A model generated the notes under the pieces. That model was given only the letters and a program-made list of their open reading frames with translations. It made no database searches and was not told the origin of the DNA. The translations under genes were made by a program, and so were the position numbers. From a virus: a stretch of DNA of 38,960 nucleotides. The stretch spans positions 1-38,960 of the IMG/VR virus record IMGVR_UViG_3300027782_005250, one strand, 5' to 3'. Below, piece by piece: positions 3,299 through 38,960 of the stretch (position 1 is its first letter; each line of letters begins with the position of its first letter).

Positions 3299-3987
3299 TA
3301 ACAGAATGGTTATATGAAAATAATAGAGACTCTTCGATTTGTCGACAAAAAGTTAAACAAATAATTAGAGAAAATAATTACACATCAATTGATGTTGGTG
3401 CTGGAGTGAATTATTGGAGCTATCCCGAATGTACGGTTGTTGCCGACATATTAAACTTAGAAAATTTTTCACATTATAATAAAACCGAAACTCATATAAA
3501 AAAAGTTTTTAACCTTAATTTACAAAACCCATCCACTTGGGGTGAATTATTATCTTATGTGGAAGAAAACGGTAAATTCGATTATTCTATTTGTTCTCAT
3601 ACTTTGGAAGATATTGTTAATCCATTTGAAGTAATAAGATTGTTAATTAAAATATCTAAAAAAGGATTTATTGCAATACCTAGTAAATTTGATGAATTAA
3701 CATTTCTTTATGGAAATTATTATAGAGGTAATCCTCATCACAAATACATTTTTGATGTAATAAAAAACGAATTATGTATTTTTCCAAAGCCAGGATTTTT
3801 AGAAAAAAATGAACAATCAGATGAAATCTCGATGTTTGGTTATTTAGGCCACCAACTTTGTATTTTTTGGGAAGACAACATCGAGTATAATATTTTTGGT
3901 GATAACGTACATTATAGCGACCAAGAATTGATAAATAATTATTATAACACTCTTAAACACAATTTATCATATGAAACCACAAATTAA
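3295..3987 (+). CDS. class I methyltransferase-like protein
   Basis: A 230-residue protein with a Rossmann methyltransferase outline: SIDVGAGVNYW at 31-41 as motif I, FDYSICSHTLEDIVNP at 95-110 (compare the D-x-H-x-LEH block of Methyltransf_11), and KKGFIAIPSK at 122-131. The second half, with RGNPHHKYIFD at about 144-154, is not a standard part of the fold and may bind substrate. ATG 3295 was chosen over an upstream in-frame start at 3238 because it forms an ATGA overlap with the epimerase stop and the extra residues look like read-back of that gene. The next gene starts 17 bases inside its 3' end. The substrate is unknown. Confidence 0.7.
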   Translation: MITEWLYENNRDSSICRQKVKQIIRENNYTSIDVGAGVNYWSYPECTVVADILNLENFSHYNKTETHIKKVFNLNLQNPSTWGELLSYVEENGKFDYSICSHTLEDIVNPFEVIRLLIKISKKGFIAIPSKFDELTFLYGNYYRGNPHHKYIFDVIKNELCIFPKPGFLEKNEQSDEISMFGYLGHQLCIFWEDNIEYNIFGDNVHYSDQELINNYYNTLKHNLSYETTN

Positions 3988-4936
3988 AATAACAAGAACA
4001 AATTTTCCAAATCAATCTATGTTATATTGGATGAGTTATTTTTCTAATATATTAGAAAAAAAATATGAGGTGGTAATAGACAATGAAAACCCTGATTTAG
4101 TTTTCTGGACTAATGTGTACTCATCGTCATCACAAATTGATTCCTATACAAATGAATTAGCAAAAAGTCATACGGATTTTCCTAATGCAAAAAAAATATA
4201 TTGTTCTTGTGAAATAACACCAAGTCATTTAGTTATTGTTGAGTTAGGTGATGACCATTACGCAATTGGTCCCGAACCTTTAGTTCATGATAGATATCTA
4301 CATTTACCAATACACAATACCACCGCCGCTTGGGGTTTATATGATGAATCAAAACTATTTGAATCACCTTATGATTGGTTAACAAAACCAAGAGACGGTA
4401 GAAAAATTCTAAATGAAAAAAAATATTTTTGTGGAGTGGTCCAAAATTCAACAATTCTTTTAAGGGCCGAATATTTTGAAAAATTATCAAACTATAAATT
4501 TGTTAGAGCATCAGGTCAATGGATTACAAATGTACCCCCCAATGAAGCAACTATAAGTCACCCAAGGATTGATGGTGAAGGATATTTGAGTAAAATAAAC
4601 TTTTTAAATAATTGTAAATTTTCATTACAAATACAATCAAATGTTTTGCCACATTTAACGGTTGAAAAAATAATTCAAGCTTATGCCGCAAACACTTTAC
4701 CAATATATTACGGAAATGAATTAGTTCTTGAGGATGGGTTTAATCCAAACGCATTTATTAATTGTCATGAATTTAATTCAGTTGATGATGTTGTTAACGA
4801 AATAATAAAAATAGATACTGATGATAAATTATATATTAAAATGATGAGTGAACCAATTTTTGTTGGGAACAAGTTACCTGATTATTTTAATCATGATTAT
4901 GTTTTAGGTTTCTTAGATAAAATAATAAATAACTAA
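3971..4936 (+). CDS. GT10 (fucosyltransferase)-like glycosyltransferase
   Basis: A 321-residue GT-B-type transferase resembling alpha-1,3/1,4-fucosyltransferases, which move fucose from GDP-fucose to an oligosaccharide. The family's nucleotide-sugar region is visible: FCGVVQNSTILLRAEYF (153-169) with YKFVRASG (175-182), then KINFLNNCKFSLQIQSN (208-224), VEKIIQAYAANTLPIYYGN (231-249) and NPNAFINCHEF (258-268). The E-K-x-x-x-A-Y...P-x-Y-x-G pattern is the most telling GT10 feature. There is no membrane anchor. It starts 17 bases inside the previous gene and ends 7 bases before the next. Another deoxy-sugar donor is possible. Confidence 0.77.
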   Translation: MKPQIKITRTNFPNQSMLYWMSYFSNILEKKYEVVIDNENPDLVFWTNVYSSSSQIDSYTNELAKSHTDFPNAKKIYCSCEITPSHLVIVELGDDHYAIGPEPLVHDRYLHLPIHNTTAAWGLYDESKLFESPYDWLTKPRDGRKILNEKKYFCGVVQNSTILLRAEYFEKLSNYKFVRASGQWITNVPPNEATISHPRIDGEGYLSKINFLNNCKFSLQIQSNVLPHLTVEKIIQAYAANTLPIYYGNELVLEDGFNPNAFINCHEFNSVDDVVNEIIKIDTDDKLYIKMMSEPIFVGNKLPDYFNHDYVLGFLDKIINN

Positions 4937-4943
4937 TAATAAT

Positions 4944-5735
4944 ATGAAATACTTTCACACAACACTTGCAATAAACGAACCGTACCTAAAAAATAGTTTG
5001 GATTTTTTTACTTCATTACATGACAAAACTGAAAATGGGTACTATAATATAACCACTAGTAAAGAAGATTTAAATAATTTTTTTAATAACACCGGATTAA
5101 CCATAGATGAATTTAAAAAAAAATATCCTAAAATTTTAATAACAACGGTTGAGGATTTAAATTCTCGTTTTAAATTTCCATTAGAAATGGAGGGCAACGG
5201 ATTTATTTTTAATTTAAATTTAAAAGTGTTATCAATTAAGGCAGCTCTTATGTCAAATATTGATTTTGAATATTTAATATTTTCAGATGGAGATTGGGGT
5301 ATCTATGACGGATTTGAAGAGGATAAATTATTCAATATGTTCCAATATATGGAAGATAACAACATTGATTTTGGATTTGAAAGACCGGCAAAAATTGGTG
5401 ATTATAAAAAAAATAATTATCAAGATTGTTTTTTTTATGAAAAAATAATTGATTATGGGGTTGATAAACATGATTTGTGGGACGAAGCGGAAGTTGTTAA
5501 TGAACAATTTTTAGTATTTAAAAACAACTCTAAATTAATGGTGTTTGAACAAAAATGGGAACAAATGCTTTGGTATAGCATTGCAAATAACATTAGAAAT
5601 TACCCTGATGGGTTTGAAATAGGTGTTTCTGCGTTAGAATCTAAAATGGTAAACAGTATTCATCCACTTAGAATATTAACAAATTGTTTTTATTTCTACC
5701 CAAAATATACAGAAACTAAACATATAAGATTTTAA
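4944..5735 (+). CDS. probable GT-A-fold glycosyltransferase
   Basis: A 263-residue protein of uncertain family. The clearest sign is LIFSDGDWGI at 111-120, a DxD motif at the end of a hydrophobic strand, preceded by a helix (LKVLSIKAAL, 93-102) as in GT-A transferases that bind a metal and a nucleotide sugar. The N-terminus (MKYFHTTLAINEPYLKNSL) opens with a short hydrophobic strand typical of such domains. There is no signal peptide. It lies 7 bases after the GT10-like gene and 5 bases before a methyltransferase gene, so function by association supports the call. Donor and acceptor are unknown. Confidence 0.55.
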   Translation: MKYFHTTLAINEPYLKNSLDFFTSLHDKTENGYYNITTSKEDLNNFFNNTGLTIDEFKKKYPKILITTVEDLNSRFKFPLEMEGNGFIFNLNLKVLSIKAALMSNIDFEYLIFSDGDWGIYDGFEEDKLFNMFQYMEDNNIDFGFERPAKIGDYKKNNYQDCFFYEKIIDYGVDKHDLWDEAEVVNEQFLVFKNNSKLMVFEQKWEQMLWYSIANNIRNYPDGFEIGVSALESKMVNSIHPLRILTNCFYFYPKYTETKHIRF

Positions 5736-5740
5736 AAAAA

Positions 5741-6376
5741 ATGAATATACAAGAAAATATAACAAGATTTACAGATCTTGCATCTAACGATAGCTTATCA
5801 TCATTTAAAGGTCATACATCCCAACAATTTCATGGGGCTTATGAAGTTTTTTATAACTTTATTAAGGAGGTTAAACCAAACAGAATTCTTGAAATTGGTA
5901 CTGCCTTGGGTGGGTTTACCACATTTTTAAAAATAATTTGTGATGAATTAAATTTAGATATAAATATTAGAAGTTACGACATACATAAACATCCTTGGTA
6001 TGACACTATTATTAATATGGGTATTGATATACGAGTGGAAAATATATTTACAGAAAATTTTGTTGATATGTTCGATGAAGTTAAAGAATACATTAACCAA
6101 CAAGGTGTTACTATAGTTCTTTGTGACGGCGGATGGAAAGTGGGGGAATTTAATTTAATTTCAAAATATATTAAAGAGGGAGATTTTATATTAGCTCACG
6201 ATTATGCCGAAAATAGAGAAATTTTTGATGAAAAAATATACGGTAAAATATGGAATTGGCTTGAAATTCAAGAGTCCGATATCGAAGAGTGTTCAATAAA
6301 AAATAATTTAATCCCATACAAAAAAGAAACTTTTGAAAATGTGGCTTGGGTTTGTAAAAGAAAAGAAAAAATTTAA
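5741..6376 (+). CDS. class I methyltransferase (CmcI-like)
   Basis: A 211-residue SAM-dependent methyltransferase-like protein. RILEIGTALGG at about 48-58 is motif I and SYD at 78-80 supplies an acidic ribose ligand. CDGGWK at 128-133 and ILAHDYAEN at 150-158 match the late D-G-x-H...D-Y pattern seen in cephalosporin hydroxylase (CmcI)/rhamnosyl O-methyltransferase-like and Methyltransf_24-like proteins. The product is probably cytoplasmic and may methylate a sugar. It is separated from its neighbours by 5 and 6 bases. The exact subfamily is uncertain. Confidence 0.72.
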   Translation: MNIQENITRFTDLASNDSLSSFKGHTSQQFHGAYEVFYNFIKEVKPNRILEIGTALGGFTTFLKIICDELNLDINIRSYDIHKHPWYDTIINMGIDIRVENIFTENFVDMFDEVKEYINQQGVTIVLCDGGWKVGEFNLISKYIKEGDFILAHDYAENREIFDEKIYGKIWNWLEIQESDIEECSIKNNLIPYKKETFENVAWVCKRKEKI

Positions 6377-6382
6377 CTATAA

Positions 6383-7309
6383 ATGAAAACAAAATTTGTT
6401 ACGTCATATTACATGGATGTCTCAGAATTCACTAACTATAAGTGGATTGGTAGTTATGCTAGTAGGAAACCAAGGTATTTGTCATCGTTAATTAACCATT
6501 GCAAAAATTTCTCTTCGTACGATATTGTTTGTTATACGCATCAAATTAATTATGATGAATTATTAAAAATTAAAAACGATTACGAATTAAATAATTTAAC
6601 AATTAAAGTTAAAGAATTAGATGACATAAAATACACCGAAAAAATTAATAAAGTAGTTAACAATGTTCCTGACTATATGGAAAAATTTGGTATAGCTGGT
6701 AGGCCTCCACAGGTTATGTGGGGTAAATTTGATTTGATTAGGTTAGAATGTACAAATGATATTGATAATATCTATTGGATTGATGCAGGACTGCAAGCAA
6801 TTCAATTATTTCCTAAAAGATATAATCCGTATATGAATGATTCTGATATATGGACAAATATAGAAAAAACAGGTAATTTTAATTTATTATTTAATGAAAC
6901 TTTAATTAATAAATTAAATTACATGATAGGAGATAATTTTTTTAATATTATGTGTAGTACCATGCAAAGTATGGTACATTCATTTAATGATTATAATCCA
7001 ATAAATGGTTATTATCCAATTGGTGGTTTTTTTGGTGGTAACCTTAGTTCGGTTTTACATTATTGTGATATTTTTGACGATGCAGCCAACAAGCATTTAG
7101 ATAATAATATTCTATGTTTTGAAGATTCAATTATGAAACAAGTTACAGATAGATACCCTAAAGAAAAATTATACACATTAGAGTGTAATACACATCAAAA
7201 TGGTTTAAATGAACAAGAGTTTCATTATGATGAATGGGATTTTAATAAAAATCTACCAAAACCAATATGGAGAATTTGGGAAGAGATACGTGATAATAAT
7301 CAATATTAA
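6383..7309 (+). CDS. HtrL/YibB (WlaTC)-family glycosyltransferase-like protein
   Basis: A 308-residue protein of the HtrL/YibB/WlaTC type, found in lipopolysaccharide and capsule loci and presumed to be glycosyltransferases. It carries IYWIDAGL (130-137), a D-containing motif after a hydrophobic strand, and IGGFFGGN (213-220), which together are diagnostic. An acidic FEDSI at 246-250 lies where the family has its E-x-x-x segment. The N-terminal VTSYY strand also fits. It is paralogous to the first half of the next gene, which repeats the same two motifs. It starts 6 bases after the previous stop. Confidence 0.75.
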   Translation: MKTKFVTSYYMDVSEFTNYKWIGSYASRKPRYLSSLINHCKNFSSYDIVCYTHQINYDELLKIKNDYELNNLTIKVKELDDIKYTEKINKVVNNVPDYMEKFGIAGRPPQVMWGKFDLIRLECTNDIDNIYWIDAGLQAIQLFPKRYNPYMNDSDIWTNIEKTGNFNLLFNETLINKLNYMIGDNFFNIMCSTMQSMVHSFNDYNPINGYYPIGGFFGGNLSSVLHYCDIFDDAANKHLDNNILCFEDSIMKQVTDRYPKEKLYTLECNTHQNGLNEQEFHYDEWDFNKNLPKPIWRIWEEIRDNNQY

Positions 7310-7314
7310 AAAAA

Positions 7315-8991
7315 ATGAGTAATATAACACTAGTAACAGGTATTTGGGATATTGGAAGAGGTGACTTATCTGAAGGATGGTCAAGACCATATCAACATTA
7401 TTTAGATAAATTTGAAAAACTTTTAGAAGTTGATAATAATCTTATCATTTTTGGAGATGAAGATTTAAAAGAATTTGTTTTCAAAAAAAGAAAACCTGAA
7501 AATACTCAATTTATTTTAAGGCCTTTAAGTTGGTTTAGAAATAATGAATTTTTTGATATGATTCAAAAAATTAGAACTAACGAATCTTGGTATAATCAAG
7601 TTGGTTGGTTGAAAGAATCAACACAAGCAAGATTGGAGAATTATAATCCACTTGTAATGTCTAAAGTTTTTATTCTTAACGACGCTAAAATTATGGACCA
7701 GTTTAATTCAGAATATATGTTTTGGATTGACGGAGGATTAACTAATACGGTTCATCCTGGTTATTTTACGCACGATAAAGTTTTAGAAAAATTATCAAAA
7801 TATATTAATAAATTTTCATTTATCTGTTTTCCTTATGAATCTGAAAGCGAAATTCATGGATTTAATTCTGAAAAAATAAATTCATATGCGGGTAAAAAAA
7901 TAACTAAAGTTGCAAGAGGTGGATTTTTTGGTGGGCCTAAAGATTCTATTAGTGATATTAATGGGATTTATTATGGATTATTAAAAACAACTTTGGAAGA
8001 TGGATATATGGGTACTGAAGAATCAATTTTTAGTATTATGTTATATAAACATTCCGATTTAATTAATTATTTTGAAATTGAAGATAATGGGTTAATTGGT
8101 AAATTTTTTGAAGATTTAAAAGATGAAAAATTACAAGTAAAATCTGAAACGTCTATTAAAATTAATCAATCTAATTTAGATATTAATAAAGTTGGATTAT
8201 ATGTTATAACTTTTAATAGTCCAAAACAATTTGAAACTCTCATAAAATCTATGGAAGTGTATGATATGGATTATTTGAATAAAACTAAAAAGTTTTTATT
8301 AGATAATTCAAGTGATGAATCTACTTATGAAAGGTATAGTGAATTATGTAGAGAACATAATTTTGAACATATTAAAAAAGATAATTTAGGTATTTGTGGT
8401 GGAAGACAATGGATTGCCGAACATTTTGAAGAACAAGATTTAGATTTTTATTTATTCTTTGAAGATGATATGTTTTTTTATCCTAAAGAAGGTGAAATAT
8501 GTAGAAATGGATTTAACAGGTATGTTAAAAATTTATTCACCAAATCAATTGAAATTGTTAAAAAAGAAAATTTTGATTTTCTTAAATTAAATTATAGCGA
8601 ATTTTTTGGGGATAATGGTACACAATGGGCTTGGTATAATGTTCCTCAACATATTAGAAATCAATTTTGGCCAGGTAAACCAAGACTTCCTGAAATGGGA
8701 TTAGACCCAAATGCCCCAAAAAGTTTATTTACCAATGTTTTAAGTCATAAAGGATTACCTTATGCGATAGGTGAAGTTTATTATTGTAATTGGCCTCAAA
8801 TAGTTACAAAAGAAGGAAATAAAAAAATGTTTTTAGACACAACTTGGGCACACCCTTTTGAACAAACATGGATGAGTCATATGTATCAGTTAGTTAAAAA
8901 AGGAGAATTATATCCTGGTATATTACTTTTAACTCCAACTGAACACAATAGATTTGAACATTACGATAGGGGGTTGCGTAAAGAGTCATAA
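7315..8991 (+). CDS. bifunctional HtrL-type / GT2 glycosyltransferase fusion
   Basis: A 558-residue two-domain protein. Residues 1 to about 275 repeat the HtrL/WlaTC layout of the preceding gene, with FWIDGGLTN (136-144), GGFFGG (202-207) and TEESIFSIML (234-243). Residues about 290-480 look like a GT2 family transferase: VGLYVITFNSP (293-303) as the opening strand, FLLDNSSDES (327-336), DNLGICGGRQW (356-366) and YLFFEDDMFFYP (379-390), the last giving an EDD in the DxD position. Two sugar-transfer sites in one chain suggest sequential addition. A C-terminal tail of about 80 residues is unassigned. It begins 5 bases after the previous stop and is the last gene of the glycan operon. Confidence 0.77.
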   Translation: MSNITLVTGIWDIGRGDLSEGWSRPYQHYLDKFEKLLEVDNNLIIFGDEDLKEFVFKKRKPENTQFILRPLSWFRNNEFFDMIQKIRTNESWYNQVGWLKESTQARLENYNPLVMSKVFILNDAKIMDQFNSEYMFWIDGGLTNTVHPGYFTHDKVLEKLSKYINKFSFICFPYESESEIHGFNSEKINSYAGKKITKVARGGFFGGPKDSISDINGIYYGLLKTTLEDGYMGTEESIFSIMLYKHSDLINYFEIEDNGLIGKFFEDLKDEKLQVKSETSIKINQSNLDINKVGLYVITFNSPKQFETLIKSMEVYDMDYLNKTKKFLLDNSSDESTYERYSELCREHNFEHIKKDNLGICGGRQWIAEHFEEQDLDFYLFFEDDMFFYPKEGEICRNGFNRYVKNLFTKSIEIVKKENFDFLKLNYSEFFGDNGTQWAWYNVPQHIRNQFWPGKPRLPEMGLDPNAPKSLFTNVLSHKGLPYAIGEVYYCNWPQIVTKEGNKKMFLDTTWAHPFEQTWMSHMYQLVKKGELYPGILLLTPTEHNRFEHYDRGLRKES

Positions 8992-8996
8992 CAATA

Positions 8997-9003
8997 TATT
9001 TAT
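8997..9003 (+). promoter_or_regulatory. TATTTAT candidate promoter core
   Basis: The TATTTAT core lies 4 bases before ATG 9008, inside a perfect inverted repeat (AACAATA at 8990-8996, TATTGTT at 9001-9007) that overlaps the stop of the GT fusion. It is one of a recurring set of such elements. The very short distance would give a leaderless or nearly leaderless message. Confidence 0.35.
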
Positions 9004-9007
9004 TGTT

Positions 9008-9385
9008 ATGGAATTTTATATTAAAAAAAACGCAACATTGCCTGTTTTAAAAATGCAAGTTGTTAAAGATGGTAGATCTGGGTATCAACAATTGATGGAA
9101 GATCTTGAAGTATCTTCAATATACTTTACAATGATTGATGTTGAGACTGGTGTTCCAAAAATTGTTTCCGCGCCTTGTAGTATTGTTTCTCTTATATTAC
9201 CTGAAGGAGCAACACCTGAATATTATATTTATTTTCAATTTACAACAAGGGGTACAAACACTCCAGGAAGATATCAGGGTCAATTTTTAATTAAAAATGA
9301 TGAAGGAAATTTAATTTTACCTATTAGAGAAGAACTTTATATTAATATACAAGAAAGTTTTATAGCCGAAAGCCCATGTTGCTAA
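9008..9385 (+). CDS. small beta-rich protein, probably virion appendage
   Basis: A 125-residue protein I do not recognise by name. It looks like an all-beta module: alternating hydrophobic strands, an N-terminal IKKNATLPVLKMQVVKDG stretch, and a cysteine pair near the C-terminus (ESPCC). The layout recalls N-terminal domains of phage baseplate upper or fibre-attachment proteins. ATG 9008 is preferred over an in-frame start at 8954, which would lie inside the preceding gene. It is the first of three same-strand genes up to 10800, set apart from the glycan operon by a TATTTAT element. The appendage role is inferred. Confidence 0.65.
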   Translation: MEFYIKKNATLPVLKMQVVKDGRSGYQQLMEDLEVSSIYFTMIDVETGVPKIVSAPCSIVSLILPEGATPEYYIYFQFTTRGTNTPGRYQGQFLIKNDEGNLILPIREELYINIQESFIAESPCC

Positions 9386-9407: not shown

Positions 9408-9707
9408 ATGGCTTGTTCAAAATATTCAATAATAAATACAGGTTCTACAATTGTCACATTTAATTACAGAAGATGTGATGATGCAATGTGGGAATATCAG
9501 GTTGAAATAACTCCTGGAGAAACAAAAAATATATGGTTAATTAGCGACACATTTTCAATTGCATCATCATTTAACCAACAAATATCGGTTGATAATCAAG
9601 GTGTATTTCCTCCAATAACTCCGGGACCAACACCAACACCAATTCCATCAAACGATTTAAGTGATTTGATCATACCTAATGATGATGTAACTTATATAAT
9701 ACTATAA
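9408..9707 (+). CDS. small protein with proline/threonine linker
   Basis: A 99-residue protein of unknown function. Residues 1 to about 65 look like one small beta domain (IINTGSTIVTFNYRRC, then VEITPGETKNIWL). It is followed by a Pro-Thr linker, PITPGPTPTPIPSN, at about 68-82 and a short acidic hydrophobic tail. A compact domain plus a PT linker is common in phage fibre and decoration proteins that attach to a larger structure. There is no signal peptide or membrane segment. It sits between two other appendage-like genes with A/T-rich spacers of about 22 bases. The structural role is inferred from context. Confidence 0.65.
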   Translation: MACSKYSIINTGSTIVTFNYRRCDDAMWEYQVEITPGETKNIWLISDTFSIASSFNQQISVDNQGVFPPITPGPTPTPIPSNDLSDLIIPNDDVTYIIL

Positions 9708-9729: not shown

Positions 9730-10800
9730 ATGGCAATAGGAGCAAGAATTTTAAGTACCAATTTAAGTGGAAAGACAGCAAATGTTACTTTCCTTCCAGC
9801 ATCTGGAGGTACTATTGATTTGGGTACACAAACAATCCCATTTAATTATATGACACCAAACCCTTATGGTGAATATGATTTATTTGTTACGCAATATCAA
9901 ACAGGATATACTGTAACGATACCAATTCCACCACCAGCACAATCGGCTTATACTGAAACGGTTAATTTAACTTTTTCAGGATCTGTTTTATCTAGTTCTT
10001 GGGGTTCATATACTACAGAGTATATACAATCATTAGGATTTGTTCCTGAAGATATTGTTTATGCCGAAGGAATTTGTTCTGATGATGTCGACGCACCAAT
10101 ATTTCAAGGTTTTAATAACATTGGACAATTTCCAACCTCAACAAATGCTTTTCTTGGACCATTTATGTCAGGAGGCCTAGCAGGTTATCCATTTGTTGGT
10201 CAAGTAGGTTTAGGTGCTTGGGCTAGTCATATTACAACAGGTACAACAAGTTCAGGAGGAACATTATTTATATCAAGTACACCACACATTGGTATTACAC
10301 TTGACGGTGATGTTGGTTATATCTACCGTAAAGGTAATGTTAGTGGTACTACTTTATCATCAACTTGTGGAGCGGTTGCAGGTGCAATAGCTCAAGTTAT
10401 TTCAACAGGAGCAACACAACCAAATTTCTCAACATGGTCAGGAAGTGGAGATTATGAATTTTATTATCTTCAAGATATTTTGTGGTCTGAAAGAGAAACT
10501 TTGTCAGGAATGACATATGGCGATAGAATGGCATATGCAACAAGAGTAATTAGAGATAGATCAAAAGATTTTTTACTTGGTGCTTTACCTGCAGCAATTA
10601 CTGGTGGAACATTATCTGCTTTAGGTTATGTTAGTGAAAATCCAGTTTATTTCTGTAATGGTCTTTTTATAAATACAGATTATGGTTATGAGTCTTATGT
10701 GCAAGTTGATGGATTTTCTGCTTGGACATGGAACAACATAACATCTGCGGGTACATGGAATGATTTAACTTCTGATTATCTTTTAGGTCTTTTACCTTAA
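9730..10800 (+). CDS. protein with LCIB-type beta-carbonic anhydrase domain
   Basis: A 356-residue protein in two parts. Residues 1 to about 90 are beta-rich and resemble a virion attachment module. Residues about 95-335 match my recollection of the LCIB/LCIC (limiting CO2-inducible) family, a variant of beta-carbonic anhydrase. It has GICSDD with a C-x-D pair (C116, D118), FVGQVGLGAWASH (155-167), PHIGITLDGDVGYIYRKG (185-202), STCGAVAGA (211-219) and, near the end, PVYFCNGLFINTD (305-317). The expected zinc ligands Cys, His and Cys would be C116, H186 and C213. This family interconverts CO2 and bicarbonate, although some members are inactive in vitro. It is the last gene before a strong terminator. 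Spacing from the previous gene is 22 A/T-rich bases. The family call rests on motif memory, not on a search. Confidence 0.72.
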   Translation: MAIGARILSTNLSGKTANVTFLPASGGTIDLGTQTIPFNYMTPNPYGEYDLFVTQYQTGYTVTIPIPPPAQSAYTETVNLTFSGSVLSSSWGSYTTEYIQSLGFVPEDIVYAEGICSDDVDAPIFQGFNNIGQFPTSTNAFLGPFMSGGLAGYPFVGQVGLGAWASHITTGTTSSGGTLFISSTPHIGITLDGDVGYIYRKGNVSGTTLSSTCGAVAGAIAQVISTGATQPNFSTWSGSGDYEFYYLQDILWSERETLSGMTYGDRMAYATRVIRDRSKDFLLGALPAAITGGTLSALGYVSENPVYFCNGLFINTDYGYESYVQVDGFSAWTWNNITSAGTWNDLTSDYLLGLLP

Positions 10801-10820
10801 AATAAAATTAAAATAATAAT

Positions 10821-10850
10821 AAAAAACCCTCAAAAATGAGGGTTTTTTAT
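10821..10850 (+). terminator. Rho-independent terminator
   Basis: A perfect 12-base-pair stem (AAAAAACCCTCA at 10821-10832, TGAGGGTTTTTT at 10837-10848) with an AAAA loop and a T run. It lies 20 bases after the LCIB-like gene. The A/T symmetry would let it act in both directions, but no opposing gene ends here. Confidence 0.9.
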
Positions 10851-10884
10851 TTTATAAATTTTGATTTTAGATCTTAAATTTTTA

Positions 10885-16782: not shown

Positions 16783-19662
16783 TTAATTTCGCAAATTATT
16801 GATTCTTTGTAATATTTCTTCCACATAATCTGCCGAATCTATATGATCACCCATCACTGTAGCAATCACTTGTTTTTTATTATTTAATATGTCATAGATA
16901 ATCCCCTCAATTGTATTTTCAAATAAAGGGTAATACACTAACACATTATTTTTTTGACCATATCTATATGCTCTATCTTCTGCTTGTGCATGATCTGAAG
17001 GTAAAAATGATAGGTCGTTGAAGATAACAGATTCTGCGGATGTTAGAGTGATACCAACACCTGCCGCTTTTATATTACCAACAAATACTTTTACTTTATC
17101 GTTTTCTTGGAATTGATCTACGCTGTTTTGTCTTTCTATCTTGGACATTGACCCGTCTAATCTAACCGCAACTTTTCCAAAATGTTCAACAATTCTGTTT
17201 AAAGATTCTGTAAAATTACAAAATATAATAACTTTCTTATCTTGTTCTATTATATTTTCCGCAAGTTCGATTGTTTGATTTATTTTTTCGTTTGCAATAA
17301 TTTGTCTGACTTTAGTGAGTTTGGTAAATTGAACTGTAAGAGATTTTGATTCTTCAGGATTCTTATCATACCAATCATAATAATCTCCCATTACTTCTTC
17401 ATATTCTTTTGATTTTAATTTCAAATAAACAGGAGTGATAATTTTGTCAGGTAAATCCAATACATTTTCTTTTAATCTTCTTAAGATGGTTGCAGATGTT
17501 CTGTCTCTTAATTCTTCCAAATTAGATGCACCCATCACATTCCATACTTTACGAAACCCCGCTTTAAATTGATATCCAGCACAATATCGAATAACATAAG
17601 CCATCCAATTTTTAGCCACGGGAGAATCAACCAAACTTAATAAATTATAATAGTCTATTGGTCTGGAGGTCATTGGGGTTCCTGTTAATAACCATAGACG
17701 ATCAATGTCTTTAACAAAATCGTTTATAAGTTTTGTTCTTTGGGCTTGGGCATTTTTAATGTAATGAGCCTCATCAACAATTACCAAATCAAAGTTTGAT
17801 TCATTTATTAATGATTTACCATTTTTTTTGGTTTCGTGGAAATTCTTTATGATATCATAATTTATGATAACAAAATCGTGATCAGCTGAAAAATTCTTAC
17901 CTTCAGAAATATAAATGGATTTATCAGAATAATTTTCAATCTCTCTTTTCCAATTTATCTTTAAAGTGGCGGGACAGATAATTAAAACTTTTTTAACTTT
18001 GGCTTCCAAAGCGGCAATAATTGTTGAGGTTGTATTGTGGGTAACAATACAATGTTCAGCAACATATAATTTATCAGGTGAATCAACGGATATACATACC
18101 GCATCACCCTTTCTTTCGAATTCAATATTTTTTATATATCTTCCAACTTTATATTTTTGTGGCGAATTATATAAGTTTTTTTTCCTTTCCATTCTAAAAG
18201 GATTCATATCACCTTGTAATTTAATGTTTACACGATATGCTCTTTTCCCTTCTTGTTTTATACCTTTATATGTGTATTTTGGTATTCTACTTGATTTACG
18301 AGCAATTCCACCTAAACTATGTACAATTTCAATTACATCATCAACTAATTTTTCAGATATTGAACAAAATTCAGTTCCAGAAAATTCATTATTTTTTCTT
18401 GATTTATTACAAAAACCATCAGTATCCATTAAACCTTGTAATATACTTAACCTATCTTCAACACTACTAAATTTATATATTTCAGGAATAAATTTATCAA
18501 TTGAAGTACATCCCATTAATCCTAATTCTTTTAAATTATTAGTTAGAGAATTTTTTCTTCCCATTTTAGTTACAATAGAATAATCACAATTATCTCCTTT
18601 AACTTTAGTTATTTCTAAATCTTCAGTTATTATTTCTTTTATATAATTAATAATTTCATTATCAACACTACTAAATCGTATAGATTTACCTGAAATGCCT
18701 CCGTCACCAATTAATAACCCAAGTAAATAAGGGTTGATTGGCAATTTATTTAAATTATTAAAATTTATTGGTTTAACAATTGGTATTTGCCATTTTAGTT
18801 GACCGTTTTTTGAAATATAATATGTCGGTTGTAACTTATTGTTTTTTCCTTCAATTCTTTTTATTTGTAAGTCTTTATCTAATAATTGTTTTATTGTTAA
18901 ATCAATTGTTAACGTTTTTCTTAAATTACTATTATTACCGTTGGCGCCTGTTGATACTGACCAAATATGTTCATCGCAGCATAAAATAGAATATCCATCA
19001 TTAAATGTAACTCTATATAAATCTTTTGTCCCTTGTGGATACACTCCAATTACATTATAGGGATTACCATCACTACCAATTACTTTTTCGCCAACGGTAA
19101 GTTCACCAATTTTTTTAGTTCCACTCGGTGTATAAATTTTAGTATTACTTTCTAAAGCCTTTCCAAGACCCATATCGTCGGCTAATATAAACCTTTTATT
19201 CTCAACCAATTTTTGGATTGCTTCTTTTTGGTGATCCAATGGAGGTCTATGAGAATATTTTTCATAATTAATCACAACATCTTTTACCGTATTGTCTTTT
19301 ATGATTGATGCTTTAGGTAACCAAAAATGATGAAGTTGTTCGTTTTCAAGAACTTTACCCCAAATATGAAACGCCTTTTCTTTATCAGCCAAAAGTTTTT
19401 CTACCCAAACTTTTTGTGGAACTTCGGTGTATAGTTTATCGTCAGCAAGTTTTTGAGCAAAATAAGCATCAAGTGTTACCCATTTTTTTGCAACCTTTGG
19501 TTGTTTGTTGTGGTTGGTAATAATGTATTCCGATTGACTTCTTGTAGGGTAGAATTTCTTATTGATTTGGGATTTTCTTTTTAATTCCAAAATATAATTA
19601 TTCCCTCCTTCATAAGTTTCAAGGATTGATAATGCTTTAGATTCTAAACTCAATTCACTCAT
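16783..19662 (-). CDS. SNF2-family helicase/translocase interrupted by an intein
   Basis: A 959-residue precursor that yields a 584-residue SNF2-type ATPase after the 375-residue intein is removed. The motif I loop is split after GLGK (165-168) and resumes with TTS (544-546). DEAH is at 630-633, LLTGTP at 658-663, GSMSKIERQ begins the second RecA domain at about 837-845, and QAEDRAYRYGQ (893-903) is the SNF2 motif VI with its arginine fingers. The N-terminal 140 residues are a phage-specific lead-in. Such proteins are double-stranded DNA translocases that remodel forks or strip proteins; T4 uses the related helicase UvsW in recombination and origin control. Activity should depend on splicing because the ATP site is cut. 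The ATG overlaps the SET-gene stop by 1 base (TAATG). Confidence 0.93.
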   Translation of the reverse strand: MSELSLESKALSILETYEGGNNYILELKRKSQINKKFYPTRSQSEYIITNHNKQPKVAKKWVTLDAYFAQKLADDKLYTEVPQKVWVEKLLADKEKAFHIWGKVLENEQLHHFWLPKASIIKDNTVKDVVINYEKYSHRPPLDHQKEAIQKLVENKRFILADDMGLGKALESNTKIYTPSGTKKIGELTVGEKVIGSDGNPYNVIGVYPQGTKDLYRVTFNDGYSILCCDEHIWSVSTGANGNNSNLRKTLTIDLTIKQLLDKDLQIKRIEGKNNKLQPTYYISKNGQLKWQIPIVKPINFNNLNKLPINPYLLGLLIGDGGISGKSIRFSSVDNEIINYIKEIITEDLEITKVKGDNCDYSIVTKMGRKNSLTNNLKELGLMGCTSIDKFIPEIYKFSSVEDRLSILQGLMDTDGFCNKSRKNNEFSGTEFCSISEKLVDDVIEIVHSLGGIARKSSRIPKYTYKGIKQEGKRAYRVNIKLQGDMNPFRMERKKNLYNSPQKYKVGRYIKNIEFERKGDAVCISVDSPDKLYVAEHCIVTHNTTSTIIAALEAKVKKVLIICPATLKINWKREIENYSDKSIYISEGKNFSADHDFVIINYDIIKNFHETKKNGKSLINESNFDLVIVDEAHYIKNAQAQRTKLINDFVKDIDRLWLLTGTPMTSRPIDYYNLLSLVDSPVAKNWMAYVIRYCAGYQFKAGFRKVWNVMGASNLEELRDRTSATILRRLKENVLDLPDKIITPVYLKLKSKEYEEVMGDYYDWYDKNPEESKSLTVQFTKLTKVRQIIANEKINQTIELAENIIEQDKKVIIFCNFTESLNRIVEHFGKVAVRLDGSMSKIERQNSVDQFQENDKVKVFVGNIKAAGVGITLTSAESVIFNDLSFLPSDHAQAEDRAYRYGQKNNVLVYYPLFENTIEGIIYDILNNKKQVIATVMGDHIDSADYVEEILQRINNLRN
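18034..19158 (-). other. class 3 intein with LAGLIDADG homing endonuclease
   Basis: This element covers residues 169-543 of the helicase precursor. It begins with alanine instead of cysteine or serine (ALESNTKIYTPSG) and ends ...CIVTHN before a threonine at +1. Block B reads DEHIWSV (W234), block F AVCISVD (C523), and block G has T541, H542 and N543. This W-C-T set plus Ala1 is the signature of class 3 inteins, which start splicing from the block F cysteine. LLGLLIGDGGI (313-323) and ILQGLMDTDG (407-416) are the two LAGLIDADG motifs of an embedded endonuclease; both acidic residues are kept, so homing may be active. The DNA looks more A/T-rich in third positions than the helicase around it. 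Insertion is directly after the Walker lysine. Confidence 0.9.
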
Positions 19663-22359: not shown

Positions 22360-25300
22360 ATGGCAACATCACAAGCAAATCAAAAAGTTTATGTATCACC
22401 TGGAGTATACACATCTGAAACGGACTTATCCTTCGTAGCACAGAGTGTGGGTGTTACCACATTAGGTTTAGTGGGAGAGACAATTAAAGGTCCCGCATTT
22501 GAACCAATTTTTATCACAAATTATAATGAGTTTCAAACTTATTTTGGGGGTACTGAACCAACAAAATTTGTTAATACTCAAATCCCTAAATATGAAGCTG
22601 CATACATTGCAAAATCATATTTACAACAATCCAATCAATTGTTTGTAACAAGAGTTTTAGGATTGTCAGGATATGATGCAGGACCATCTTGGAGTTTAAA
22701 ATTAATTGCAAATGTAGATCCTACGACAATTGGGTTAGAACCTAGTGTTGGAACTGTTTGGTCCGCCAATTTTACGGGGAGTTCAACAGGAAATACTGTA
22801 TCATTTTTAAATCCTGGAAATTTACCTCCAAGTGTTGAACAAAATCTAAATGTACAATATAGATTACAGGACGGAAGTGTTTCTACTCTACAAAAAGATT
22901 TTAATAGTTATCTTGATAATATCATGGATGCTCCTAGTTTGTCAGGAACAAATGCTATTATATATGGATCAATACCAAATAGTGATTGGGACAGTTTAGA
23001 TTCTTCCTATTCAGCAATAACAAATGCTTATAAAACATATAATACTAATTTGTATTATAATGATTTGACGGCATCATCAAATGATCCTTGGTATTATGCT
23101 AATTTTGAAATTTCTTCAGTAAATAATTATAGTGGATATTCTTTTTACTATGATGTAACCGCTCTTACTTCTGGTGGAACTATAAGTAATCCAACATTTT
23201 CAGGAACAGTTTCAGGTAAGTATTATACATTTACCGGTACGGCTTATACCGATTATAATAATATGGTCGTTGCTACATTGAGGTCAAGAGGAATTTCACT
23301 TTATAGTAATAGTTCATCTAGTGATAATCACGGACCAATTTATGAAGTTACCGGACTAACTGATGTTAGTTTAATTTGTACTGATCAATATTCTAATATA
23401 GATAAAAATCCTTACGCAACATTTTTAATAAGTGGTGTTACTAAAAATAATTCAACATTCCAATTAGAAACTTCTTTATTGGCGTCCTCATCAAAATATA
23501 TGACAAAAGTTTTTGGAATTGATAACTTTGGTAAATCAAGAACTCAAGTTCCTTTGTTTGTTGAAGAAATTTATCAAGGATCATTAAATTACGCATATAA
23601 TAAAGGTTATATTCGTGGTTTGGTTTGTGATTTAATTGCTTTACCTGATGCAAGAAGTGAAAATCCTTCATCAATAGCTTGGAATTTGGAAAAATATCAA
23701 TCACCTGAAACCCCTTATTTGGTTTCCGAGTTGAGAGGTAATAAGGTATACAATCTTTTTAGATTCATATCAATTTCTGATGGTGATGCTGCAAATACTG
23801 AAGTAAAAGTTTCAATTGCAAATTTATCATTTAATAATATGACTTTTGATGTGTTAGTTAGAAACTTCTATGACACAGATGCAAATCCTATAGTTCTTGA
23901 GAAATTTACTAATTGTACTCTTGATCCTTTAACCAATAGCTTTATAGGTGTTAAAATAGGAACATCTAATGGGGAATACGCTTTAATTTCAAGATATATA
24001 ATGGTTGAAATGGCAGATAATGCACCGGTAGACGCGTTACCTTGTGGATTCCGTGGGTATACTCAAAGGGAATATGAATCAGTTGAAAATCCTTCACCAA
24101 TGATTGTTTTTAAAACAAAATACTATTATCCTGGTGAGACAATTTATAACCCTCCTTTCGGAACTTCTTCTGGTGGTTCCAATACTGTTGAATCTGGCGG
24201 AGATGTTGTAAGAAGAACTTATTTAGGATTTTCAAGTCAATTTGGTATTGATGATTCTTTCTTGGGTTATAAAGGTAAACAAAACCCAATAACTGATTGG
24301 GCTGACGCAACCGATTCAATTCCTTGGAACTATTTGAGTAAAGGATTTCATATGGACTCTGGAGCAACTGTAGTAACAATTGCAAACGCATTCCAAACAA
24401 GTGGTCAAACCGCATTTGAATGTGGAGTTGCTGACTTTAGAAATGATCCAGAAACTCAAGAAAACCCCTATTACTTTATTTATTCAAGAAAATATACTGT
24501 ATGTTTTGCAGGTGGATTTGATGGATGGGATATCTATAGAGAATATAGAACTAACCAAGACAGATTCCAATTAGGATCTTCAGGTTATTTGGCAGGAGCA
24601 GCACCATCACAAAGATATCCAAACGCAACTGGAACTGGATTGTTTAAGAGAATTGTGGTACAAAATAACACACAAGATTTTGCAAATACTGACTATTACG
24701 CTTACCTACTTGGTATCTTAAGTTTCAGAAATCCTGAATCAACAAATATCAATGTATTCGCAACATCAAGTATTGATTATGTGAATAACTCAAACCTTGT
24801 TGAAGAAGCGATTGATATGATTCAATATCAAAGAGCTGACTCGGTTTATATCGCAACAACTCCTGATTACAATATGTACACTCCTGACGGAACAAGTCAA
24901 TATGATGTAATATATCCTCAAGAATCTGTTGATAATCTTGATAATACAGGAATTGATTCTAACTATACGGCAACTTATTATCCTTGGATACTTGTAAGAG
25001 ATACTGTGAATAATACACAAATATATCTTCCACCAACAGGTGAGGTTTGTAGAAACTTGGCATTAACTGATAACATTGCATTCCCTTGGTTCGCATCAGC
25101 GGGTTACACAAGAGGTCTTGTAAATTCAGTTAAGGCAAGAGTTAAACTAACTCAAGAAGATAGAGATACATTGTATCAAGGTAGAATCAACCCAATTGCA
25201 ACTTTCTCTGATGTGGGAACTGTAATTTGGGGAAACAAAACTCTACAAGTTGCTGATTCGGCACTTAATAGATTGAATGTTAGAAGATTATTACTACAAG

Positions 25301-25578
25301 CTCGTAAGTTGATTTCAGCAGTTGCAATAAGATTGTTGTTTGAACAAAACGACCAAGTCGTTAGACAACAATTCTTGGATAGTGTAAACCCAATCCTTGA
25401 TTCAATCAGAAGAGATAGAGGTCTTTATGATTTCCGTGTAACTGTATCATCTTCACCTGAAGATTTGGATAGAAATACACTAACAGGTAAAATATATCTT
25501 AAACCTACGAAGGCGTTAGAATTCATTGATATTGAGTTCTTTATCACACCAACAGGTGCTTCGTTTGAAAATATCTAA
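22360..25578 (+). CDS. tail sheath protein, T4 gp18-like
   Basis: A 1072-residue contractile sheath subunit that forms rings around the tail tube and contracts on infection. The N-terminus shows the family opening, VYVSPGVYTSETDLS, then GLVGETIKGPAFEP and YFGG. The conserved C-terminal domain (about 905-1072) has LVNSVKARVKLTQEDRD, the long LNVRRLLLQARKLISAVA helix, and a final beta strand pair, VTVSSSPEDLD and FIDIEFFITP, which lock neighbouring subunits. It is longer than T4 gp18 (659 residues); the excess lies in the middle (about 150-400), where Ser/Thr/Tyr/Asn-rich beta sequence suggests domains displayed outside. A TATTTAT element lies 34 bases upstream and a terminator follows directly. 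Confidence 0.95.
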   Translation: MATSQANQKVYVSPGVYTSETDLSFVAQSVGVTTLGLVGETIKGPAFEPIFITNYNEFQTYFGGTEPTKFVNTQIPKYEAAYIAKSYLQQSNQLFVTRVLGLSGYDAGPSWSLKLIANVDPTTIGLEPSVGTVWSANFTGSSTGNTVSFLNPGNLPPSVEQNLNVQYRLQDGSVSTLQKDFNSYLDNIMDAPSLSGTNAIIYGSIPNSDWDSLDSSYSAITNAYKTYNTNLYYNDLTASSNDPWYYANFEISSVNNYSGYSFYYDVTALTSGGTISNPTFSGTVSGKYYTFTGTAYTDYNNMVVATLRSRGISLYSNSSSSDNHGPIYEVTGLTDVSLICTDQYSNIDKNPYATFLISGVTKNNSTFQLETSLLASSSKYMTKVFGIDNFGKSRTQVPLFVEEIYQGSLNYAYNKGYIRGLVCDLIALPDARSENPSSIAWNLEKYQSPETPYLVSELRGNKVYNLFRFISISDGDAANTEVKVSIANLSFNNMTFDVLVRNFYDTDANPIVLEKFTNCTLDPLTNSFIGVKIGTSNGEYALISRYIMVEMADNAPVDALPCGFRGYTQREYESVENPSPMIVFKTKYYYPGETIYNPPFGTSSGGSNTVESGGDVVRRTYLGFSSQFGIDDSFLGYKGKQNPITDWADATDSIPWNYLSKGFHMDSGATVVTIANAFQTSGQTAFECGVADFRNDPETQENPYYFIYSRKYTVCFAGGFDGWDIYREYRTNQDRFQLGSSGYLAGAAPSQRYPNATGTGLFKRIVVQNNTQDFANTDYYAYLLGILSFRNPESTNINVFATSSIDYVNNSNLVEEAIDMIQYQRADSVYIATTPDYNMYTPDGTSQYDVIYPQESVDNLDNTGIDSNYTATYYPWILVRDTVNNTQIYLPPTGEVCRNLALTDNIAFPWFASAGYTRGLVNSVKARVKLTQEDRDTLYQGRINPIATFSDVGTVIWGNKTLQVADSALNRLNVRRLLLQARKLISAVAIRLLFEQNDQVVRQQFLDSVNPILDSIRRDRGLYDFRVTVSSSPEDLDRNTLTGKIYLKPTKALEFIDIEFFITPTGASFENI

Positions 25579-34884: not shown

Positions 34885-35208
34885 ATGGCATTTCCGTATT
34901 ATAATAGATATAGTGAATTTTTAATAAATGGTGGACAAACTGTTGTGCCGTATGTTACATTACCACAAAAGCCTTCGGATCAGACTTATATATACAAAAT
35001 AGCCATGAGTAGACTAGATAAAGTTTCTCAAGAATTTTATAATTCACCATATTTTTCATGGTTAATTTTACAAGCGAATCCTCAATTTGGAGGATTAGAA
35101 AATTATATATATGATGGTGCAGTATTGATTATTCCATTTCCTTTAATAGCATCTTTACAAGATTATAAAGCAGCATTAGATAATCATTTTTATTATTATG
35201 GCAGGTAA
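34885..35208 (+). CDS. baseplate wedge protein, gp53/LysM-like
   Basis: A 107-residue protein that resembles the LysM-like part of T4 gp53, a wedge protein that joins wedges to the hub. SRLDKVSQEFYNSPYFSWLI (about 42-61) followed by ANPQ and IYDGAVLIIPFP (75-86) gives the helix-helix and DG-x-x-L-x-IP pattern of that fold. T4 gp53 is larger (196 residues), so only the core is present. It starts 2 bases after the preceding giant gene and its last 11 bases overlap the next one, so the three are probably translated as a unit. Confidence 0.78.
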   Translation: MAFPYYNRYSEFLINGGQTVVPYVTLPQKPSDQTYIYKIAMSRLDKVSQEFYNSPYFSWLILQANPQFGGLENYIYDGAVLIIPFPLIASLQDYKAALDNHFYYYGR

Positions 35209-38200
35209 TTTACAGGCAGACAATAGTGGGAACATATTAGTTGAATTTGACTATAACAATATCATTATTGTTGATCCAAATAAAACAATTGATGCGCAAG
35301 GTAATATTGCAGAAAGATTGGTTGATCAAGAAAATTTAGTAATGTTTGCAAATCTTGAAGCCGAATTATTACCAAGAACAAAATTGGCGGTTGGTGCAAG
35401 TCCGGAGGACAGAATCAGAACAATATCGATTGCCAAAATAAATTTCCTGAAACCCACCAAAAACAATTACATGGGTACAGGATATTACGATGAATTTACT
35501 GGAAAAGATACAACGGCAAAGAAAGGAGTAAATCAGCCAAAAGAAATGCCCGTCATTCCTAAAAATGGAGATAAGCCATATGTAAAAAATACTGTTGTTG
35601 ATCAACAAAATGTTATTGATAACGGTCTTTTAGGAATGACCTCAATTGAAATAAAAACCAGTACTTCATTTATTCCAACAGTAACCATTAGACTTGAAGA
35701 TGTACAAGGAAAAGCGTTATTTCAACTAGGTAATGAATCACCATATGCGGCATTTTTTAATTTACCCTACCCTCCTTTTTATTTAACACTTAAAGGATAT
35801 TATGGACAAGCGATTAGGTATCAATTGAATTTAGAAACATTTAATGCTAGTTTTAATTCGTTCAGTGGAAACTATCAAGTCACTCTCCAATTAAAAGGAT
35901 ATAAGTTTAATATATTAAATGAAATATCAATGGCTCAGTTACTGGCAACTCCACATATGTATTCGACAACTTACACTCAAACACAATCGCCAACAACGGG
36001 AGAAGGTAAAGGACAAGCCAAAGCAACTTCAGTAGATCCAAGTGTTGCACAAGGTACAACAAGTACTAATAATGTTAGTACAACAGTAATTTCTGAAAAG
36101 GGATATCAAAAAATTGTTGAAGTTTATAGTGAATATAAATCTAAATTATTAATACCACCAGATTTTCCTGAATTAACTCTTGTTCAGTTAATGAACAAAC
36201 TTCAAAATTTTATAAATGGAATTACAAACAGTTATATTAAAGTTGATGTTGAGCCATTAACCAATATAAGAAATTATAAAGATTTACTTAAAAGATATTT
36301 TGAAAGGGTTAAAGGTGATCAAGTATCTTGGTTTAAAGATTATTTGGATCCAAAACCAATAATATTAGAAAACGAACAAAAAGTATATTTTTTTAAACAA
36401 ATTAGTGATGGAGAAAAGGCGGATGCTAAAAAAGAATTAGAAACATCTATAATTAAAGTTTTTAATGACGAATTAGCAGCGAACCCTACATTGGGTAGCA
36501 AAGGAACATCTCCAATAACAAATCAAATAACATATGACAAAATTTTAATAAGTATTGATGCGTCTAAAGTTGATTGGAAAAAAACTGTCAGAGAACAGAC
36601 AGGAATAATTCAACCAACCACGGCCCAAACAAAAGATGCAATTTTTAAAATATTAAAAACAATAAACCAAAAAACTTTTGATGTTAAATTTGATAATGGA
36701 GTTCCTAACATAACAAGTATAATTCTACCTGATTTTTTTGTTTTTGAGGGGGAGTCAAGATTTAGTAATCTAATTTCAATTATGGAGGCTGAAGCCAACA
36801 AAAAATTATCTCAAACTGAACAAAAACTCACATTAGAGTTGGCTTCTAAAATTGAAGATAAATCAACAGGGATTGGATTTAAACCAACAGTAAGAAATAT
36901 AACCGCAGTTATTATGGCATCTGCGGAAGCCTTTATTCGTTTAATGGATGATGTTCATACTAATTCTTGGAATCAAAAATATAATCCTATTAGAAAAAAT
37001 GCTATATTGGATAATCCATCATCAGCGCCTGGAACAGATACAACAAAAAATGTTAAAATTGATCAAACAACTTTAAATGGAGATAATCAATATGCAAATT
37101 CGCAAGAACCTGTTTACCCTTGGCCACAATTTTTTGTTGAAACACCTGAAGATAAAAAGGGTAGATTTCAATTAAGGTATATTGCAGATCCAACCGTTGT
37201 TGATTTAACTCAAGGATATAATTATGTGGCATGGCCTGAAGTAGAGTTTGTTGAAGAGTTTATGAAAGGATTAACACAAAAATTAAATCCACCAATAGCA
37301 CAACCGCCAACAGATTCAGAATCAACAACAATAATAACTAATATAAATGCAATAGAATTTCCAAATTCTGGAATAGCATATGTTAACAAAGAACAACTTA
37401 AATTTTTCTATGAGATTTGGGAAAGACAGTTTTTATCTTCATTTTATTCTGGATTTATAAGGACAACAAATAATACAGATCAAGTTCAAGATATAACAAA
37501 GTTAAATACACAAGTAGATGGTTCTAACATAGTAAATAGTTTAGGAGTAAGTTCACCATATTTGGCTTTGTCCTTAAAAGAATATAATTTTACGGCACAA
37601 AATTACAAACAATACTTAAGTAATTTTTCAAATCAAGGAACCGGTAGATCATACCAAGATTTTATTAGAGATTTTTTTGTTACACCGTATATTAAAACTT
37701 TTACAGAAAACTCTTTTAGTATTTTAAATTTAAATGATTTAGGTAAAAATCCTGAAAAATTAGATTCAAAGTATATTGAAACACTAGAAAAAATAGTTAA
37801 ACAAACAATTAATGAACCATTCATAGTTGATACAATACCTTTTACAGATTATGGTTGGAATCAAAAAAACTTAAGCTCTTCAAATAAAAGTGTTAATCAA
37901 GAAGTATATAATACAAATAAAGTATTAAAAGTCATTCCATCTAGAAGTGTAATTTCAAATTTTAATGACATTTCTAATTATACAACAAATAGACCAGTTA
38001 CTAATTTTTCATATTTAAATGTTAAAAATCCTATTGATGTATTATCAAATACAAATTTACAAGGATTTTATTTAACAAGAGAACCAAAAGATTTTGTTCC
38101 AACTGAAGGGTATATAGAACAAACAGTTCCTAGCGGACCTTTACTATCAAAATTAACTACTTCAATTTTAAACACACCATACTTCATAAATGCAATTCAA

Positions 38201-38960
38201 AATGGTGTTTATAATTGGAGAAAAAAAGACCAATACCCTTATGTTCAAGCAGCATACCTTTTTGTAAATTCATTACCATTGGCTTCTTTAAGAGAAAGGT
38301 ATAAGACCTATAATAATTCAACAACAACAGAATTAGATTATATCGCATCTTGTTTCAAAAAATTCGGAGCTATTCATAAAATGCCATACGCTTGGGTTTT
38401 AAAAATGGGATCAATTTGGCATAGATATAAAAAATATAAAGAATCAAATATTGATATTTTAACAGGTGTTTGGGATAACTTTGATTACACAACAAATTAT
38501 GATCCTATAACTAAATCTAAAACTAAAGAATATAGTTTTAAGACAAAAGAAAATACCAAGGAGTTTTCATATAATATCGTTTTACAAAATGAAGCTGTAA
38601 GTGGGATTACCATACAAACAGGATTTTATCCAAAAGTGATAAATGATTTTAATGTTTTTTATAATGGATATGATCTTTATATAAATTATAGTAATGAAGA
38701 AATTCAAAAAAGTGTAAACAATGGAATGGTTCCATATTCTTTATCACAAATAAATGGAACACAACAAGGTAAAAATTTTCAATTACAGGCATATTCAGTT
38801 TTACTAAAAGATCAAATTAATGATACATTGACAACGAGCAATCTTTGTACACCGGTAAATGCTACTGATGGTGTTGAATATTTTATGGTACCTTCATTAG
38901 GTGCTAAAATAAATCAAACAGAATATGAATGTCTTGTGAATGGTGCTACGGTTATCGATG
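35198..38960 (+). CDS. giant tail/baseplate structural protein (3' end off window)
   Basis: An open frame of at least 1254 codons starting at ATG 35198, which overlaps the gp53-like gene by 11 bases, and running past the window edge; I followed the frame to 38960 without meeting a stop. The first 250 residues carry strands such as SIEIKTSTSFIPTVTIRLED, SPYAAFFNLPYPPFYLTLKG and NYQVTLQLKGYKFNIL, resembling the barrel domains of baseplate hub or wedge proteins. The middle is rich in Asn/Lys/Thr with helical stretches, and later parts contain alternating aromatic strands. No enzyme motif is seen. The position after gp53 suggests a wedge or hub component. I cannot name the family. Confidence 0.8.
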   Translation, partial: MAGNLQADNSGNILVEFDYNNIIIVDPNKTIDAQGNIAERLVDQENLVMFANLEAELLPRTKLAVGASPEDRIRTISIAKINFLKPTKNNYMGTGYYDEFTGKDTTAKKGVNQPKEMPVIPKNGDKPYVKNTVVDQQNVIDNGLLGMTSIEIKTSTSFIPTVTIRLEDVQGKALFQLGNESPYAAFFNLPYPPFYLTLKGYYGQAIRYQLNLETFNASFNSFSGNYQVTLQLKGYKFNILNEISMAQLLATPHMYSTTYTQTQSPTTGEGKGQAKATSVDPSVAQGTTSTNNVSTTVISEKGYQKIVEVYSEYKSKLLIPPDFPELTLVQLMNKLQNFINGITNSYIKVDVEPLTNIRNYKDLLKRYFERVKGDQVSWFKDYLDPKPIILENEQKVYFFKQISDGEKADAKKELETSIIKVFNDELAANPTLGSKGTSPITNQITYDKILISIDASKVDWKKTVREQTGIIQPTTAQTKDAIFKILKTINQKTFDVKFDNGVPNITSIILPDFFVFEGESRFSNLISIMEAEANKKLSQTEQKLTLELASKIEDKSTGIGFKPTVRNITAVIMASAEAFIRLMDDVHTNSWNQKYNPIRKNAILDNPSSAPGTDTTKNVKIDQTTLNGDNQYANSQEPVYPWPQFFVETPEDKKGRFQLRYIADPTVVDLTQGYNYVAWPEVEFVEEFMKGLTQKLNPPIAQPPTDSESTTIITNINAIEFPNSGIAYVNKEQLKFFYEIWERQFLSSFYSGFIRTTNNTDQVQDITKLNTQVDGSNIVNSLGVSSPYLALSLKEYNFTAQNYKQYLSNFSNQGTGRSYQDFIRDFFVTPYIKTFTENSFSILNLNDLGKNPEKLDSKYIETLEKIVKQTINEPFIVDTIPFTDYGWNQKNLSSSNKSVNQEVYNTNKVLKVIPSRSVISNFNDISNYTTNRPVTNFSYLNVKNPIDVLSNTNLQGFYLTREPKDFVPTEGYIEQTVPSGPLLSKLTTSILNTPYFINAIQNGVYNWRKKDQYPYVQAAYLFVNSLPLASLRERYKTYNNSTTTELDYIASCFKKFGAIHKMPYAWVLKMGSIWHRYKKYKESNIDILTGVWDNFDYTTNYDPITKSKTKEYSFKTKENTKEFSYNIVLQNEAVSGITIQTGFYPKVINDFNVFYNGYDLYINYSNEEIQKSVNNGMVPYSLSQINGTQQGKNFQLQAYSVLLKDQINDTLTTSNLCTPVNATDGVEYFMVPSLGAKINQTEYECLVNGATVID

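Follow-up and report, generated by a model that had tools for sequence, protein, structure and literature searches.

An LCIB-family beta-carbonic anhydrase domain joined to appendage-like anchor modules in uncultured phages

Enzymes carried by phage particles are usually regarded as hydrolases of the cell envelope or of polysaccharides. The nearest described parallel to the architecture reported here is provided by phage receptor-binding proteins (RBPs) with swappable N-terminal anchors, such as the Klebsiella RBPs (PMC8262889), in which a conserved attachment module is combined with varied C-terminal heads, some of which are enzymatic and most of these polysaccharide depolymerases. Carbonic anhydrases encoded by viruses have been noted as auxiliary genes in viral metagenomes (PMC3474794) and in a giant virus (PMC13037468), and the predicted viral structure library BFVD includes a carbonic anhydrase from Pandoravirus. 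The locus described below shares the conserved attachment module and varied heads of the swappable-anchor RBPs, but the head in question is a carbonic anhydrase and the anchor module of the protein matched no phage record searched. Like the auxiliary genes it is a virus-encoded carbonic anhydrase, whereas for the LCIB type and for its fusion to an appendage anchor no report was found. In comparison with the LCIB/LCIC family itself (PF18599; PtLCIB4, 6kfs, CrLCIB/LCIC), the fold, the order of motifs and the active-site residues are alike; however, the viral domains form a separate, long-branched clade with an NIGQ/GxP insert and a W..DLT..Y..GL tail, and an N-terminal module or extension comes before them. 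Our search of the literature, which covered only openly licensed papers and might have missed a report, found none of LCIB in phages, of an appendage-anchor fusion or of this phage group; the family is a known one, and its inferred setting on a phage appendage appears to be new.

The locus was found in a virus record of 38,960 bases (IMGVR_UViG_3300027782_005250), the whole of which was analysed and is called the window below. The gene of interest and its two principal modules are as follows:

9730..10800, + strand: LCIB-fusion gene, 356 aa with an ATG start, comprising an N-terminal anchor module and an LCIB-type beta-carbonic anhydrase domain (open reading frame, Pfam, model with pLDDT 89)
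9730..9924, + strand: type A anchor module, residues 1-65, a six-strand beta domain common to appendage-like proteins without LCIB (model, homologues)
9997..10710, + strand: LCIB_C_CA domain (PF18599), residues 90-327 (Pfam match)

The PF18599 profile matched residues 90-327 of the 356-aa protein with an e-value of 1.6e-28 and a score of 100 bits, the curated cut-off being 25; ten diverse viral relatives passed this cut-off too. This strong match establishes the membership in the LCIB/LCIC family that had been claimed in an earlier note on this DNA. A single-sequence search of the PDB with the fusion protein recovered 6kfs as the top hit (E = 5e-17), and PtLCIB4 with E = 9e-12. The residues and motifs named in the earlier note, namely C116, D118, H186, R200, C213, FVGQVGLGAWASH (155-167), PHIGI (185) and NGLFIN (310), were found at exactly the positions given; its list of active-site residues was correct but incomplete, for H167, the equivalent of PtLCIB4 H88, had been named merely as a part of a motif and belongs on the list. 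A chance match of motifs is ruled out by the Pfam, profile and fold evidence.

A first structural model built from phage sequences alone attained a pLDDT of only 67 and was too poor around the active site; it was replaced by a model of the monomer, whose alignment included bacterial LCIB relatives and extra anchor modules, with a pLDDT of 89 and a pTM of 0.83. This model superposes on 6kfs with a Z-score of 27.4 (2.2 A over 243 residues), on PtLCIB4 with 27, and on the Chlamydomonas LCIB and LCIC with 20.9 and 20.3; the Z-scores against classical beta-carbonic anhydrases, at about 12, lie far below those for the LCIB structures. The superposition on LCIB/LCIC structures, which had been proposed earlier as a check, hence predicts an LCIB fold with the zinc and catalytic residues at matching positions (atom-to-atom distances were not read). 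Neither the profile search nor the predicted structure thus gave the outcome that the earlier note would have taken as a refutation. By sequence, fold and active-site residues the product of the gene at 9730-10800 is an LCIB-family beta-carbonic anhydrase. By analogy with other LCIB proteins, its C-terminal domain is probably a dimer.

The alignment with LCIB proteins locates the active-site residues and an insert as follows:

10075..10083, + strand: C116 (zinc Cys), S117 (counterpart of PtLCIB4 S47) and D118 (Asp of the beta-CAs)
10117..10134, + strand: NIGQFP insert (residues 130-135) specific to the phage clade, following the C-x-D loop and preceding GGLAG
10228..10230, + strand: H167, equivalent of PtLCIB4 H88
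10285..10287, + strand: H186, zinc His of PHIGI
10327..10329, + strand: R200, conserved active-site Arg
10366..10368, + strand: C213, second zinc Cys of STCGA

Six of these residues (C116, D118, H167, H186, R200 and C213) show no variation among the 62 distinct viral and 56 bacterial homologues, wherever the position is covered and gaps apart. Profile mapping with the same alignment as used for the model equates C116-S117-D118 with the CSD of PtLCIB4, H167 with its H88, R200 with its Arg, H186 of PHIGI with the His of SHVGV and C213 with the Cys of CCGS; the numbering C46-S47-D48 of PtLCIB4 follows that of its deposited mutants S47R and H88A. The six residues align with 6kfs too. The serine position corresponding to S47 holds Ser in the phages, with Ala in 6%. 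The insert, with the form N130-I-G132-x-x-P135, is found only in the viral clade, where N130, G132 and P135 are invariant, and is absent from the bacterial homologues. In close pairs the LCIB domain displays a dN/dS of 0.05-0.22, usually lower than that of the anchor, which shows that it is under purifying selection. A decayed or pseudo-enzyme is ruled out at the sequence level by the invariance of the active-site residues. However, an intact site is no guarantee of activity: LCIB homologues from algae that have zinc sites proved inactive when purified (PMC5876011). In the Chlamydomonas LCIB and LCIC the lack of activity was blamed on the disorder of His162/161 and Arg194/193 (PMC5876011), which we match with H167 and R200 on the strength of near-equal spacing (32 residues there and 33 here).

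Scans of IMG/VR drew in 10 close relatives at first, and then at least 73 viral loci or contigs with an LCIB domain. In a tree, 60 viral sequences fell on one side of a branch with an SH-aLRT support of 100, and 52 bacterial sequences, mostly from Bacteroidota and Balneolota, on the opposite side. The bacterial homologues are stand-alone proteins of about 230-290 aa, while the viral LCIB domain is preceded by at least 7 different, unrelated N-termini. Misassembly or a one-off fusion is ruled out because the same fusion recurs in many contigs from different metagenomes. No match was obtained when LCIB proteins from three clades were searched against 50,697 GenBank phage records, nor did these records match three anchor modules, the conserved neighbour at 9008-9385 or an upstream 731-aa protein; BFVD likewise gave no confident match. 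In five loci (L184, L185, L182, L192 and L202) we observed two LCIB genes in tandem whose N-termini differ, which suggests that a single phage displays two heads or that the products form a heteromer.

The earlier note had described the N-terminal module as beta-rich, and the model indeed predicts six strands in it (residues 4-7, 16-23, 29-35, 38-41, 47-53 and 58-64). Comparison of the anchor fold with known structures gave merely weak Ig-like matches. The same module is found on the adjoining gene in relatives, and over 50 further open reading frames, all distinct and without LCIB, have it as well. Most of these have long P/T-rich stalks, and the other heads that follow the module include LamG, Fib_succ_major and papain-like domains as well as DUF285 repeats. 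One record of 272 kb has six copies of the anchor, one of them in the LCIB gene, and a cluster of anchor-module genes was located between the terminase and portal genes. The anchor was detected without an LCIB hit in 29 records; on this count, though many of the records are fragments, the LCIB domain is optional in anchor-bearing phages. Neighbouring genes without LCIB also encode the N-termini of two other types of LCIB proteins, those of L189 and L203, and the L203 type leads there into a T-rich stalk. The appendage-like character of the protein, which had been no more than a guess, thereby gains independent support, both from the mobility of the N-terminal module and its presence on stalked adhesin-like proteins, and from the two further anchor types on neighbouring genes. 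Judged from its distribution among sequences, the type A module is an interchangeable anchor. Two individual proteins with the module were also noted. In L054 (8414-9799) it is followed by a papain-family protease domain, possibly a further enzyme head displayed by the same means; in L207 (11885-15004) a protein with the anchor module, encoded between terminase and portal, has a C-terminus resembling the Hint/intein type (...NVDVNNSNLYFANNVLTHNK).

The surroundings of the gene contain three further elements:

9008..9385, + strand: conserved neighbour (MEFYIKKNATLP...), also found ahead of the LCIB gene in related phages (open reading frame 8954-9385, likely start 9008)
9408..9707, + strand: neighbour of 99 aa with a second anchor type (MACSKY...) and a short PT linker (open reading frame, homologues)
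10818..10851, no strand assigned: terminator-like palindromic stem-loop, either strand of which has a T-run; it separates the LCIB and DNA polymerase genes (sequence)

Both upstream neighbours had previously been called appendage-like. This holds for 9408-9707, whose anchor is of an appendage type and is present on 50 other distinct open reading frames, many with long PT stalks; the protein of 8954-9385, while conserved, had no match among PHROGs, phage records or other families. Throughout the group this MEFYIKKNATLP... protein is conserved in the vicinity of LCIB and appendage genes, and it is a candidate docking partner. The terminator placed earlier after the LCIB gene is present as the stem-loop with T-run at 10818-10851. 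T4-type late promoters (TATAAATA) were not enriched over chance in the AT-rich window. The window contains T4-like structural genes for a head-tail adaptor, terminase, tail sheath, tail tube and baseplate hub. In its own clade the LCIB gene belongs to an appendage cassette that lies outside the tail block, with glycosyltransferase genes on one side and the DNA polymerase gene on the other; in several relatives the LCIB gene adjoins the latter. This context is compatible with a structural protein but is no proof by itself. Elsewhere the gene follows the head-tail connector genes and directly precedes the tail sheath and tube genes (L189, L193), is near the major capsid gene (L155), or is flanked by fibre-like genes, one of which matches a tail-protein family (L162).

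We propose, at a probability of roughly 0.6, that the protein is a catalytically competent LCIB carbonic anhydrase that a virion appendage carries as an interchangeable head. In such a scheme the N-terminal beta module would dock the protein to the particle, as it may do for the stalked adhesin-like proteins of the phage; zinc would be bound via C116, H186 and C213, with D118, H167 and R200 in support; and the C-terminal domain would interconvert CO2 and bicarbonate. Borne on the virion, the enzyme would work within the unstirred layer that surrounds a respiring host and could shift the bicarbonate and pH found there in the course of attachment or of ejection. The data establish the family, the fold, the conserved residues, the sharing of anchors and the purifying selection. 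Display on the virion is strongly inferred, there being no virion proteomics for these uncultured phages; zinc binding and the hydration of CO2 are inferred, and a benefit at the host surface from altered bicarbonate or pH is speculative. The broader proposition, that widespread large uncultured phages display an active LCIB carbonic anhydrase whose domain was joined to different anchors several times, and that by this means virions either modify the CO2, bicarbonate and pH around the host surface or react to the flux of CO2 from an active host, we hold only tentatively, at somewhat less than an even chance.

The main rival to a catalytic head is the reuse of the fold for binding, with the LCIB domain recruited as a receptor-binding or adhesin head and its zinc site kept for structure or for a ligand rather than for turnover. 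Most of the other recognisable heads on the same anchor (LamG, Fib_succ_major, DUF285) do look like binding or surface domains, purified algal LCIB members can be inactive (PMC5876011), and an insert specific to the phages lies between the C-x-D loop and GGLAG. However, a mere binding role sits poorly with six active-site residues that are invariant across a very divergent clade, with a domain under purifying selection, where host-recognition tips often diversify, and with the retention of Ser at the S47 position in all but the 6% with Ala; we regard it as unlikely, while deserving to be kept in mind. The protein could alternatively remain inside the cell as an auxiliary metabolic enzyme, supplying bicarbonate for nucleotide and fatty-acid synthesis or adjusting pH, as might be supposed from the auxiliary carbonic anhydrase genes of viral metagenomes (PMC3474794) and giant viruses (PMC13037468) and from the adjacency to DNA polymerase in several relatives. 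Yet a soluble enzyme has no need of an anchor common to PT-stalked surface proteins, several unrelated kinds of anchor precede the LCIB domain, and some copies are situated within tail and head gene blocks; because of the anchors a purely intracellular role is the less likely one, and we consider it distinctly improbable.

Other enzymes with the beta-carbonic anhydrase fold hydrolyse COS and CS2. A displayed enzyme acting on such a small molecule, with access to the site changed by the insert, could be entertained in view of the invariant N130, G132 and P135 seen in the viral clade only, but there is no direct evidence for it, the residues of the CO2 site are all of the LCIB type, and we give it hardly any credence. 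If the LCIB protein is indeed displayed as a carbonic anhydrase head, phage biology would gain a small-molecule gas enzyme, infection would be tied to the host's respiration or to inorganic carbon, and a family known from algal CO2-concentrating systems would be extended to virus particles. The anchor module further points to a whole set of unexplored displayed heads.

The matches of the sheath to Microcystis phage Mel-JY01 (32%) and of the DNA polymerase to Salinibacter phages (24%) are too distant for a host to be assigned; Bacteroidota are a candidate that has only weak support. Several other genes of the window have unusual features of their own. In the open reading frame that matches the large terminase subunit (16786-19662, - strand), a long internal part with matches to phage families of helicases, primases and methyltransferases, together with an intein-like stretch (SGTKKIGELTVGEKVIGSDG...), suggests that the terminase contains an intein. 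The tail sheath (22360-25578, + strand) is a protein of 1072 aa in which the matches to the sheath family are mainly confined to the last 220 residues, leaving a large extra N-terminal part. A glycan-modification cluster (3971-8991, + strand) encodes a fucosyltransferase-like glycosyltransferase of family 10, a product weakly matching methyltransferases, and a protein of 558 aa that combines HtrL_YibB with a weak TAGT or glucosyl-HMC transferase-like part. Finally, an open frame of about 1260 codons (35180-38959, + strand) runs past the end of the window.
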